DNA of 47,040 bases from Bacteroidales bacterium (GTDB lineage: Bacteria; Bacteroidota; Bacteroidia; Bacteroidales; UBA932): positions 1-47,040 of the forward strand of contig JAKSKN010000017.1 in the NCBI GenBank assembly GCA_024401695.1, read 5' to 3'. The number at the start of each line of letters is the position of its first letter. Within the stretch, counting starts at the first letter, position 1. The position numbers were made by a program, and so were the translations under genes. This document shows, in pieces, positions 3,240 to 46,584 of the stretch. The notes beneath the pieces were generated by a model. That model made no database searches and had not been told where the DNA came from. It saw nothing but the letters and a program-made list of their open reading frames with translations.

Positions 3240-3689
3240 ATGGTCACGTTCATCGGAAAATACACATCCAAGGTCGACGACAGGGGCAGACTGGTGTTCC
3301 CGGCGCCGTTCAAGGGTGCCGTACCTCCGGGGAGCGACCTGAGGTTTGTCATCAAAAAAAGTCTCTACGACAATTGTCTTGAGATGTGGTCCTACGCCGA
3401 GTGGGAACGCGAATCGGACAAAATCCGCGAGAGCCTGGATTTCTTCAACCCGGAGCACGTCAAATTCTGGAGAGAATATATGCGTGACTGCGACGTTGTG
3501 GAGCCTGACGCCAAACTCGGGCGCATCTCGATATCCCGATATCTTCTTGACGCAATCGGTGTTGACAAGGAAGTGGTTTTCTTTGGCATCAACTTCAAGA
3601 TAGAAATCTGGGCACGAGAGAAATTCGAGAGTTCACAAGTTTCTAAAGAAGATTATGTTGCCATTGCAAAAAGCCTCTCCCGCAAATAG
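3240..3689 (+). CDS. mraZ: Transcriptional regulator MraZ
   Basis: 149 residues with the two tandem SpoVT/AbrB-like halves of MraZ: GKYTSKVDDRGRLVFPAPFK at the N-terminus and DAKLGRISISRYLL followed by KEVVFFGINFKIEIW at about residues 88-120. MraZ assembles into a ring that binds short direct repeats ahead of its own operon and represses it. It is first in the dcw operon, 9 bases before rsmH, and the matching repeat array stands at 3166-3201. The ATG at 3240 is chosen because the conserved fold begins directly after it and the promoter lies immediately upstream. Confidence 0.95.
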   Translation: MVTFIGKYTSKVDDRGRLVFPAPFKGAVPPGSDLRFVIKKSLYDNCLEMWSYAEWERESDKIRESLDFFNPEHVKFWREYMRDCDVVEPDAKLGRISISRYLLDAIGVDKEVVFFGINFKIEIWAREKFESSQVSKEDYVAIAKSLSRK

Positions 3690-3698
3690 AGGGCAGCA

Positions 3699-4601
3699 AT
3701 GAGCGAATATCACAATCCCGTTCTTCTCAAGCAAAGCGTTGACGCCCTGGTCCTGAACCCGGACGGCTGCTATGCCGACGCCACATTCGGCGGAGGCGGC
3801 CACAGCCGTGAGATCATCTCCCGCCTGAGCGGGAAAGGCCGCCTGATGAGTTTCGACCGCGACGAAGACGCGCTGGGCAACGCCATCGACGACCCACGCT
3901 TCACCCTTGTCCACAACAACTTCCGATTTATCCACAATTACACCCTGCTCAACTTTCCGCAGGGTCTCGACGGAATCCTCGCCGACCTCGGCGTAAGTTC
4001 CCACCAGTTTGATACCGCGGAGCGCGGCTTCTCATTCAGATACAGCGCTCCCCTTGATATGCGAATGAACGTGCAGGGCAAAAAAACCGCTGCCGACATT
4101 GTCAATTCTTATACGCAAGAAGAATTGGAAAAAGTTCTCCGGCTCTACGGAGAGGTTGACAATTCCCGCCGGGTGGCGCAGCTCATCGTTGCAGCCCGCG
4201 CGGTCAACCCTATCCAGACAACCGATGACCTGGACAATGCCATAGCGGCTGCCCTGCCAACATTCGCTGAACACAAGTACCTCGCAAAGGTCTATCAGGC
4301 CCTCCGTATCGAGGTCAACGAAGAGATGCGCTCACTCGAGAAGTTCCTCGCGGGAGCCGCCGGATCCCTCAGACCGGGAGGCCGCCTTGCCGTCATCACC
4401 TACCATTCGCTTGAAGACCGTATGGTAAAGAATTTCATCAAGACCGGCAACGTGGAAGGCGAAGAGGTCAAGGATGTATTCGGCCGCAGCAGCGCCCCCC
4501 TGAAGGCAGTCAACCGCAAGCCGATACTGCCGGAAGAGGATGAGATAGAGACTAACACACGCGCCAGGAGCGCAAAGCTCAGGATTGCAGAGAAAGTATG
4601 A
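3699..4601 (+). CDS. rsmH: 16S rRNA m4C1402 methyltransferase RsmH
   Basis: 300 residues, the usual length. It begins with YHNPVLLKQSVDAL, then the SAM-binding signature DATFGGGGHSREII near residue 28, and has GLDGILADLGVSSHQFD, ERGFSFR..PLDMRM and GGRLAVITYHSLEDRMVKNF near 225-243, all diagnostic of RsmH (MraW). The enzyme N4-methylates C1402 of 16S rRNA in the cytosol. It is the second gene of the dcw operon, as in most bacteria. Its TGA overlaps the ATG of ftsL by four bases (ATGA at 4598), indicating translational coupling. Confidence 0.96.
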   Translation: MSEYHNPVLLKQSVDALVLNPDGCYADATFGGGGHSREIISRLSGKGRLMSFDRDEDALGNAIDDPRFTLVHNNFRFIHNYTLLNFPQGLDGILADLGVSSHQFDTAERGFSFRYSAPLDMRMNVQGKKTAADIVNSYTQEELEKVLRLYGEVDNSRRVAQLIVAARAVNPIQTTDDLDNAIAAALPTFAEHKYLAKVYQALRIEVNEEMRSLEKFLAGAAGSLRPGGRLAVITYHSLEDRMVKNFIKTGNVEGEEVKDVFGRSSAPLKAVNRKPILPEEDEIETNTRARSAKLRIAEKV

Positions 4602-19393: not shown

Positions 19394-19821
19394 AAATTGG
19401 AATTTGCAGCGACCACGCCGGCGTTGAATACAAGTCAAAACTGATCAGCTATCTTCTGGGCAAGGGTTATGATGTCGTGAATTTCGGTACTGACAGCACC
19501 GACAGCTGCGACTATGCAGACTTCGCTCATCCTATGGCTTATGCCATCGAGGAAGGTGAGGTCGATTGCGGCATCGCAATCTGCGGCACAGGCAATGGAA
19601 TGGCTCTTGCGCTGAACCATCATCAGGGAATCCGCGCCGGACTTGCCTGGAACAAGGACATCGCCCATCTGGTGAAGGAGCACAACAATGCCAACGTTCT
19701 TGTGATGCCTGCAAGATTTGCCAGCTATCAGATGTGCAACCTTATGGTCCGCGAGTGGCTCTCAACGGAATTCGCAGGCGGACGTCATCAGAGACGCATT
19801 GATAAAATACCTGTCAAATAA
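19390..19821 (+). CDS. rpiB: Ribose-5-phosphate isomerase B
   Basis: 143 residues, the normal RpiB/LacAB length. KIGICSDHAGVEYKSKLISYL at the N-terminus holds the substrate-binding DHAG; ICGTGNGMALALNH near 63 holds the catalytic Cys65; IRAGLAWN and EHNNANVLVMPARF follow as in the family. It interconverts ribose 5-phosphate and ribulose 5-phosphate. The last 23 bases overlap truB if that gene starts at the TTG at 19799. Confidence 0.95.
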   Translation: MKIGICSDHAGVEYKSKLISYLLGKGYDVVNFGTDSTDSCDYADFAHPMAYAIEEGEVDCGIAICGTGNGMALALNHHQGIRAGLAWNKDIAHLVKEHNNANVLVMPARFASYQMCNLMVREWLSTEFAGGRHQRRIDKIPVK

Positions 19822-20749
19822 TATCGAAGACTATCCTGAAGGGATAGTGCTGCCCATTGACAAGCCTTACAGGTGGACGTCTGCCGATGTCATCCGCAAG
19901 GTGAAGTTTGCGGCAATACGTCATTTCGGGAAGAAGAACCTGAAGGTCGGCCACGCGGGGACGCTCGATCCCCTCGCGACCGGCATTCTTCTTGTGTGCC
20001 TCGGCCCTGCCACGAAACGGGCTGAAGAACTTCAGCGCTCCGCAAAGCAGTACGTGGCCGGAGTCACCTTCGGTGCCACGACACCGTCCTATGACCTTGA
20101 GAAGGATATCGACCGGGAGTTCCCCCTGGACGGAGTGTCCGAGCGGGCCGTTCGCGAGATACTGCCGGAATTCATCGGCGAGCAGGACCAGGTCGCCCCG
20201 CTGTTCAGCGCCAAGTCGGTCGACGGCGTACGTGCATACGAGACAGCGCGAAAGCTCTACAAGGCCGGACAACTCACTGAAGAGAACAATATCCTCCAAG
20301 CCAACCGAATCAATATTTACAATCTGGAATTATTGTCTTTCGATTCCCCCGCGGCAGGAGAATTCTTTGTCTCACTTGAAGGACCCGTGTCCACCCTCGG
20401 ACACGTTAGAGGGAGGGGCCCGCTGGATACAAGTTCCGAAGGGACGCAGGAGACAGTGGGAAGGATGGAGCGAAGCGGAAGGTCATCAAGTGAGAGCAAA
20501 GAATTTTCCAAAGCGGGGGAATCGAAGAAGAACAGGATCAATGTCGCGGACATATCGGGATACAATTTACCGACGGCTATGATTCAGGTCGACTGTTCCA
20601 AGGGAACATATATCAGAGCCCTCGCCCGCGACCTGGGCGAAGCGCTCGGCAGCGGAGCCTTCCTGAGCTCGCTGCGCCGCACAAAAAATGGAGGCTTCGA
20701 CATCGCCGAAGCCCTCACTCTGGATCAAGTCATCGCCCTGCTGGACTAG
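19799..20749 (+). CDS. truB: tRNA pseudouridine-55 synthase TruB with in-frame insertion
   Basis: 316 residues from the TTG at 19799; an in-frame ATG at 19718 would add 27 unrelated residues inside rpiB, and no ATG lies closer. Motifs: LPIDKPYRWTSADVI, VGHAGTLDPLATGILLVCLG with catalytic Asp57, the YVAGVTFGATTPSYDLEKD strand and VDCSKGTYIRALARDLG near 258. TruB makes pseudouridine 55 in the T loop of tRNAs. Residues about 180-244 are an insertion rich in Ser, Gly, Arg and Glu, encoded by a 190-bp palindrome (20338-20528); without it the protein would be about 250 residues. The elements RINIYNLELL and RINVADISGY on its two sides both resemble the family strand before CSKGTYIR. The stop overlaps that of uxaC. 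Confidence 0.92.
   Translation: MIKYLSNNIEDYPEGIVLPIDKPYRWTSADVIRKVKFAAIRHFGKKNLKVGHAGTLDPLATGILLVCLGPATKRAEELQRSAKQYVAGVTFGATTPSYDLEKDIDREFPLDGVSERAVREILPEFIGEQDQVAPLFSAKSVDGVRAYETARKLYKAGQLTEENNILQANRINIYNLELLSFDSPAAGEFFVSLEGPVSTLGHVRGRGPLDTSSEGTQETVGRMERSGRSSSESKEFSKAGESKKNRINVADISGYNLPTAMIQVDCSKGTYIRALARDLGEALGSGAFLSSLRRTKNGGFDIAEALTLDQVIALLD
20338..20528. repeat. Palindromic (foldback) element inserted in frame in truB
   Basis: Arms 20338-20385 and 20481-20528 are inverted copies. About 40 of 48 positions match: TTCGATTCCCCCGC, then GGA-AATTCTTTG, then TCTCACTTGA, then GACC, with three short mismatched or gapped spots. The 95-nt centre begins with a second hairpin, CGTGTCC (20386-20392) with GGACACG (20399-20405). 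The whole unit is read through in frame with no stop. Its codons do not match any TruB domain. Whether it is mobile or dispersed cannot be told from one copy. Confidence 0.85.
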
Positions 20750-46550: not shown

Positions 46551-46584
46551 GAATGCCCGGCTGGATTCGTCCAGTCGGGCATTC
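46551..46584 (-). terminator. rRNA operon terminator
   Basis: A 14-bp stem (46551-46564 with 46571-46584, one G-T pair) begins six bases after the end of 5S rRNA on the minus strand and is followed by TCATTTTATG. Position and strength suit the end of the rRNA transcript. Confidence 0.7.

Follow-up and report, generated by a model that had tools for sequence, protein, structure and literature searches.

The truB gene in a 47,040-nucleotide stretch of Bacteroidales DNA (the window) is interrupted, with its reading frame kept open, by a long imperfect palindrome. What is this palindrome, how could it have come to lie within a gene for a tRNA-modifying enzyme, and where do its two arms come from?

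A palindromic insert in truB

The original prediction placed imperfect inverted repeats, matching at about 40 of 48 positions, around a centre with its own 7-bp hairpin and described the unit as translated in frame upstream of the CSKGTYIR motif of TruB. The palindromic insert is confirmed. Its arms are real and match at 36/41 positions by local alignment (41 nt at 73% in ungapped pairing), the central hairpin pairs 20386-20392 with 20399-20405, and the frame runs through the unit ahead of CSKGTYIR. Counted together with the ACC/GGT ends of the core, the arms occupy 20339-20385 and 20481-20526; all other parts are given in Table 1. Folded as RNA, positions 20330-20536 reach -98.3 kcal/mol against a mean of -62.3 for 200 dinucleotide shuffles (z -8.1, none as low), and on both strands the element folds better than shuffled sequence (z about -8). 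Two other palindromes of the window, at 436-480 and 46551-46584, have 21- and 15-nt arms and short loops and are possibly terminators.

Table 1. Positions in the window of truB, of the palindromic element and of its parts.
Feature	Coordinates	Strand	Evidence and remarks
truB (tRNA pseudouridine-55 synthase) reading frame	19802..20749	+	Pfam TruB_N, TruB_C_2; NCBIfam TIGR00431; AlphaFold2 model; start codon unsettled within this frame
truB element, whole imperfect palindrome	20339-20526	+	arms 44 + 43 nt, core 101 nt
Left arm, 44 nt	20339..20382	+	contains GCAGGAGAATTC at 20354-20365
Core, 101 nt	20383..20483	+	covariance model R1, 84.4 bits, E 1e-19 (this copy is one of the 8 used to build R1); other genome copies
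Core hairpin 1, 7 bp, loop 20393-20398	20386..20405	+	covariation, helix 2 in alignment A3
Pseudoknot strand a, CCCTC	20394..20398	+	pairs with 20409-20413
Pseudoknot strand b, GAGGG	20409..20413	+	partner of 20394-20398
Core hairpin 2, CCC...GGG around a tip of variable length	20419..20460	+	helix 4; position read from sequence
Core hairpin 3, GCGAAGC mini-hairpin	20470..20476	+	helices 5-6; variants exist
Right arm, 43 nt	20484..20526	+	outer 26 nt (20501-20526) align with native sequence of the empty allele

A TruB protein scan of named genomes, of which the best 80 of 224 loci were kept, allowed the insert to be compared with its relatives. An AlphaFold2 model computed with 37 of these 80 relatives as input assigns pLDDT values below 50 and no secondary structure to residues 186-239 of the 315 modelled (about 20357-20518), and values of at least 90 to 181 of the remaining 261 residues. 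The disordered stretch sits between the strands 165-181 and 258-265, so that the insert would form a floppy loop ahead of CSKGTYIR. Mapping the insert on a structure model, as the original prediction suggested, thus places it in a low-pLDDT loop devoid of secondary structure, a region that is not conserved protein. Among the best 80 of 224 loci, 15 have at least one core match inside the truB match, and one of them has two; both orientations occur, and at two of these 15 loci the match is weak (E 0.002-0.004). Insertion at the truB loop is recurrent, and the loop varies within the genus; it is missing from six truB loci of other families. In one truB gene (L367, 2081-2245), two element cores stand in tandem.

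The closest of these best 80 of 224 loci, L333, has a truB that is 86% identical outside the insert (652/758; 464/536 + 188/222) and its site is empty, with 47 nt where the window has 188. That all close TruB orthologues might share the insert, which would have pointed to an ordinary protein segment, is therefore contradicted by the nearest one, and the simplest reading is that the insertion took place on the window's own lineage. In net terms the site has gained 141 nt (47 codons), equal to the 101-nt core plus 40 nt, about one arm. The predicted read-through in frame stands, but the predicted size of about 65 residues does not, because the empty allele already has 47 nt at this place.

A dispersed family with a conserved folded core

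The truB insert belongs to a family of short, mobile palindromes found in the source genus. A covariance model built from eight copies detects 13 copies (E <1e-3) in the window's own genome of 2.65 Mb. Of 61 genomes of the genus, 54 have matches at E up to 0.1, the number per genome being 0 to 51; one 8-contig genome has 39 copies and another genome 48. The core is about 70-125 nt long and stands in either orientation, both in spacers and in frame within loops of housekeeping proteins. Further copies of the palindrome, expected from the original prediction, were thus found in its own genome and in relatives, and so was the expected spread through genes and spacers, copies lying both inside and outside long open frames. 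A copy was counted as lying in such a frame when the frame had at least 200 codons, was open through the element and extended at least 20 codons on each side, which is not gene calling. By this measure 9 of the 13 own-genome copies are in long open frames, as are 10/13, 11/14, 11/15 and 12/15 copies in four relatives, 15/30 in G043, 6/30 in G016 and 6/18 single copies from other genomes. The 80 open-frame copies use five of the six frames, the sixth being used in one case; we estimate that open frames at the G+C content of the core are unsurprising by themselves. Host genes in the own genome include folC, argS, ispG, truB and mtaB-like, uvrA-like, ThiF-family and arginase-family genes; the sequence of the uvrA-like locus ends inside the gene, and in a nitroreductase-family ORF the element may precede the true start. 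The element is apparently a piece of selfish DNA that spreads without disrupting the frame. BLASTN with 20330-20536 gave no match in phages and plasmids, one exact-pattern scan of viral_contigs gave none, and no paper describing the family was found in a literature search whose coverage excluded most subscription papers and preprints.

The core folds in a characteristic way. Alignment A3 holds 94 cores (92 distinct rows) from 89 chosen loci and was fitted to the hairpins of the covariance model; the pseudoknot is absent from the model and so was not fitted. In A3 hairpin 1 is paired in 94.9%, hairpin 2 in 94.2% and the pseudoknot, formed by the hairpin-1 loop with a downstream GGG-rich strand, in 99.3%. 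Both variable pairs of the pseudoknot covary, the 92 rows containing 2 exceptions: columns 15-29 read UA in 41 rows, GC in 38 and AU in 13, and columns 16-28 read CG in 48, UA in 42 and other combinations in 2. The covariation score of the pseudoknot is 0.335, compared with 0.119 when shuffled and at most 0.057 with slid partners. The count of further pair types in A3 is not above that of shuffles (182/500 as high). The element ends mostly in ACC...GGT, and these closing pairs are paired in just 63.8% of A3 cells. The core thus has a conserved single-strand fold of three hairpins and a pseudoknot.

One host gene deserves separate mention. As read by eye, the loop of murB occupied by the element in G053 and G050 carries REP-like TGTCATTCCGAGCGAAGTCGAGGAATCTC-type repeats in other species (L242 about 3387-4063; orthologues in G005, G054, G067, G003 and G073), and by this inspection it is a permissive loop common to different repeat families. 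In G053 murB, two element copies (L242 3602-3686 and 4096-4189) share one 468-codon open frame.

Locus-specific arms and their possible origin

The original prediction proposed comparing copies for shared ends. The arms differ from copy to copy, and the core is what the copies have in common. Each arm pairs with its own partner at a score of at least 12 in 76 of the 91 copies with enough flank, compared with 7 of 1036 comparisons between arms of different copies and 0 of 86 far-flank controls taken 400 nt away (maximum 8). When pairs with identical cores are compared within a genome, 8 of 9 agree at 5 or fewer of 10 outer-arm positions, although the nine pairs share members and are not independent; G014 provides the clearest case of identical cores with different arms. 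This analysis omitted single copies from other genomes. In G016, 15 copies (L139-L153) together with L157 form one block with similar arms and near flanks, which was excluded from the identical-core, mismatch and internal-loop analyses and kept in the 91-copy pairing test. Arms are also shared by L419, L423 and L431 in G014. Copies close to truB but not within it were uninformative about arms. Nearly every copy examined has inverted arms on its flanks that are particular to its locus, around a shared core. In genomes with the cleanest arms pairing ends after about 24 nt, whereas other genomes have a second stem beyond a purine-rich internal loop (positions 20-28).

Comparison of orthologous copies gave a picture of how cores and arms change. 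Ten chosen ortholog pairs with 252 arm pairs contain 5 compensatory double changes and 14 other changed pairs that are uncompensated; for the G008/G015 pair, only the right flank could be aligned. All five double changes are transversions at both positions, so that no single G.U intermediate is available. At one site (G008:C13:60201 and G015:C25:9652) the element stands in opposite orientations, and at site E3 G053 has an element where G005 has an inverted remnant. At G053:C17 and its G005 orthologue the arms are shared and the core hairpin is not, and a second core in G053 matches that of G053:C17 exactly over 94 nt. Core conversion is thus possible, and identity of the cores is by itself no proof of new arms. 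At one pair of orthologous sites in sister species (G005:C32:928-1023 and L458 about 70-180) the arms differ and one core is truncated and inverted, an apparent case of arm rewriting. At L243 9513-9596 (= L224), a truncated core is followed directly by the right arm (TTAATGCCTGTTAT ... ATAACAGGCATTAA).

Mismatches within the arms are strand-asymmetric. On the element's own strand, across 141 of 178 copies (short-flank, weak-arm and repeated-arm copies having been dropped), G.T outnumbers A.C by 123 to 67 and A.G outnumbers C.T by 157 to 28. The bias flips on the sense strand of the host gene (G.U 35, A.C 77), so the asymmetry tracks the element rather than the mRNA. Such a bias suggests that a folded single strand (RNA or DNA) is a selected form, and hence that some mobilising process would recognise it.

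The source of arm sequence is best seen at truB. The left arm of the window contains GCAGGAGAATTC, the exact reverse complement of GAATTCTCCTGC, a match equalled in 3 of 5000 shuffles; GAATTCTCCTGC occurs once in L333, on the right side only, in the native right flank. The outer right arm aligns with this native flank, the portion inside the end repeat being weak when taken alone (194/5000 shuffles as good). L333 also has a short inverted repeat of 11/12 nt at the arm ends, TTCGATACCCC / GGAGGAATCGAA, which could be the spot where a folded-back strand rejoined its template. The hallmark of a template switch, a reverse-complement copy nearby with return at local homology, is seen at this one locus, window against L333. 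No direct target-site duplication is visible by eye in the window/L333 alignment, which is one empty/filled pair. At murB site E2 of G053, the right arm includes LTP codons that most aligned relatives have, with their reverse complement forming the left arm, which may lend partial support to template switching. The outer right arm in folC reads NAEMIP and is native by local alignment to solved FolC, a result no more than suggestive of an arm derived from native sequence. One 3-kb G016 locus, compared with 400 genomes, is at best 80% identical to another genome, and therefore offers no recent empty site.

The length gained was also measured in other comparisons. Beyond the core, the gain is 34 nt for L335 against L341 (38 residues longer), 17 nt at G005:C165 and 27-33 nt at E5; at E4 it is 60 nt, nearer two arms. 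Ten non-truB sites gave 47 comparisons with coreless relatives, a tally that omits two poorly anchored comparisons and relatives with a core or a lengthening repeat, and in these the smallest gain is 2 nt, the largest 62 nt and the median about 35 nt. The arms at the ten sites are mostly 24-27 nt long, and some relatives have other loop repeats; the gain therefore lies between one arm and two. A rule of core plus one arm fits well at truB and E5 and loosely elsewhere. On these comparisons, the arms appear to be built at least partly from target DNA and not carried along.

We consider a mobile core whose arms arise by fold-back template switching on the local flank to be the leading reading, with slightly better than an even chance of being correct. 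The core would enter a new site through replication-linked copying, a step inferred from the failure to find a partner transposase. The ends of the core, AACC...GGTT, are complementary and would let the growing strand fold back, and the polymerase would then copy its own flank as the reverse complement. Copying would end once the strand re-annealed with the original template, at a short inverted repeat already present there, giving a product of core plus inverted flank copy. The same hairpin might later provoke more template switches, by which arms would be repaired or rewritten and the core flipped, and the insertions that survive would be those in frame, in floppy loops or in spacers. Against fold-back stand a G053 site (contig 34) with arms but no core, the G053:C17 core that looks converted between unchanged arms, the G014 trio with shared arms, the above-chance likeness of outer arms around near-identical cores, gains that are not reliably one arm, the modest pairing of the ACC/GGT closing pairs that fold-back needs (63.8%) and the 14 uncompensated arm changes. 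A purely mutational account also does not predict the strand-asymmetric mismatches or the purine internal loop. Both the fold-back reading and the movement itself are what we infer from sequence comparison. The fullest version, with the pseudoknotted core alone as the element, inverted repeats rebuilt at each site by replication fold-back, no transposase of its own and selection on the folded strand, is tentative and, taken whole, on the improbable side.

Alternative explanations and known systems

The foremost alternative is a palindromic element of MITE or REP type mobilised by a transposase, with arms that are terminal inverted repeats evolving fast under a pairing constraint. In 43 pairs with near-identical cores, mean arm identity is 0.74 over the inner 6 nt, then 0.51, and 0.44 in the outer part, which is still above chance; this gradient and the arms shared by some copies are as expected for such terminal repeats, and the asymmetric mismatches and conserved purine internal loop suggest that a folded strand is selected. 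It is harder to reconcile with the largely different outer arms in 8 of the 9 identical-core pairs from the same genome, and with the host origin of part of the window's left arm. Copy number also does not follow Y1 transposases (PF01797). These occur in 32 of the 61 genomes and show no correlation with element copy number (Spearman 0.09, p 0.48); they are absent from 6 of the 12 genomes with at least 20 copies, three of these six genomes being less than 80% complete. Y1/RAYT was accordingly rejected as a partner, since copy number does not track Y1 across the 61 genomes, and we regard the transposase-mobilised reading as doubtful. The genome of the window has one Y1 (IS200-like) match at G000:C70:20115-20468, with an E value of 8e-41, by far the strongest in the 61 genomes.

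Alternatively, the core might prefer the centre of pre-existing palindromes, so that the arms would belong to the target. G053 contig 34 has both arms as a bare palindrome that lacks a core, at a site filled in the orthologous G005:C165, and a short inverted repeat (11/12 nt) marks the arm ends in the empty L333 allele. That allele does not form a long palindrome, however, and long palindromes are improbable within truB, murB or folC. A scan of 766 kb of G053 gave 51 palindromes, compared with none in 240 kb of Markov-resampled sequence; by our own reading of 45 of the 51, about 17 belong to one separate repeat and 4 to another, and many others are terminator-like, so locus-specific bare palindromes appear rare. 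At contig 34, loss of the core seems to us likelier than a pre-existing palindromic target, and the pre-existing-target explanation as a whole is unlikely. G053 also has a separate repeat family, a dispersed AATCCTCGTTC...GAACGAGGATT palindrome (for example at L473 1681, L441 2823 and L451 6936).

A structured RNA gene or cis-regulatory RNA, selected at each locus and non-mobile, would account for the strong covariation and the pseudoknot. It is very improbable given copies in unrelated protein genes, in both orientations and five of six frames, given relatives that are empty at these sites, and given the lack of any match to Rfam covariance models at E up to 1 in six element loci. An ordinary variable TruB loop that is self-complementary by chance has practically no prospect of being right, for although the loop does vary in the genus, the same DNA core in folC, argS, ispG, uvrA-like and mtaB-like genes and outside genes refutes it.

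Returning to the mobile core with arms made by fold-back, the element is unusual both for its conserved pseudoknotted core and for its arms, which seem to derive at least in part from the target. Protein-coding palindromic elements are spreading in a large genus of gut Bacteroidales, including in genes of central metabolism and translation, and provide many natural experiments on how palindromes originate, how pairing is kept up and how proteins tolerate them. They offer a testable case of a selfish sequence that might spread by provoking template switching while neither encoding nor borrowing a classical transposase. Such insertions can supply new disordered protein segments, as the loops of truB, murB and the aminotransferase indicate.

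Several known systems invite comparison. Integron attC sites and IS200/IS605 hairpins are recognised in folded single-stranded form, and their structure is better conserved than their sequence. In attC sites the ends are conserved and the middle is variable; the element is the opposite, with a conserved middle and variable ends. Template switching at quasi-palindromes is described in two papers as producing reverse-complement copying, arm homogenisation and spacer inversion (PMC8794818, PMC8604942). Those switches are local mutations, whereas the ones proposed here coincide with a dispersed conserved core. Mitochondrial genes of Nematomorpha contain perfect coding inverted repeats that are gained and lost, and the authors of that study discuss repeat conversion or template switching as explanations (PMC6649704). 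In those repeats conserved protein is encoded by both arms and there is apparently no shared mobile core, unlike in the element.

REPs resemble the element in being dispersed palindromes, some of them intragenic. The CGTC type has no known transposase, is partly intragenic, includes RPE-4 and RPE-6, and consists of a single 8-9 bp stem with a 4-5 nt loop and a CGTC tag, as described in one study (PMC3733652). Like this type, the element has no dedicated transposase that we found; it differs in its three hairpins, pseudoknot, long variable arms and ends of mostly ACC...GGT. Unlike GTAG REPs with their REPtrons (RAYT), the element is not associated with Y1 by copy number, and unlike MITEs it has no constant terminal inverted repeats.

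Copies within one family of Rickettsia palindromic elements (RPEs) share their palindrome sequence, a feature not found in the element, in which the core is shared and the arms differ. RPEs are short palindromic repeats inserted into numerous unrelated genes, in frame in a sizeable share of cases, and R. conorii has 44 RPE integrations with many in-frame fusions, as reported in one study (PMC10969869). The element is similar in lying in frame within unrelated genes, 9 of the 13 own-genome copies being in frames of at least 200 codons. It differs in belonging to another phylum, in its locus-specific arms that are partly host flank, in its pseudoknotted core and in its use of five of six frames. 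The analogy with RPEs drawn in the original prediction is supported in behaviour, a resemblance judged from published descriptions; on that basis the element looks closest to RPEs in what it does, and looks like a separate family.
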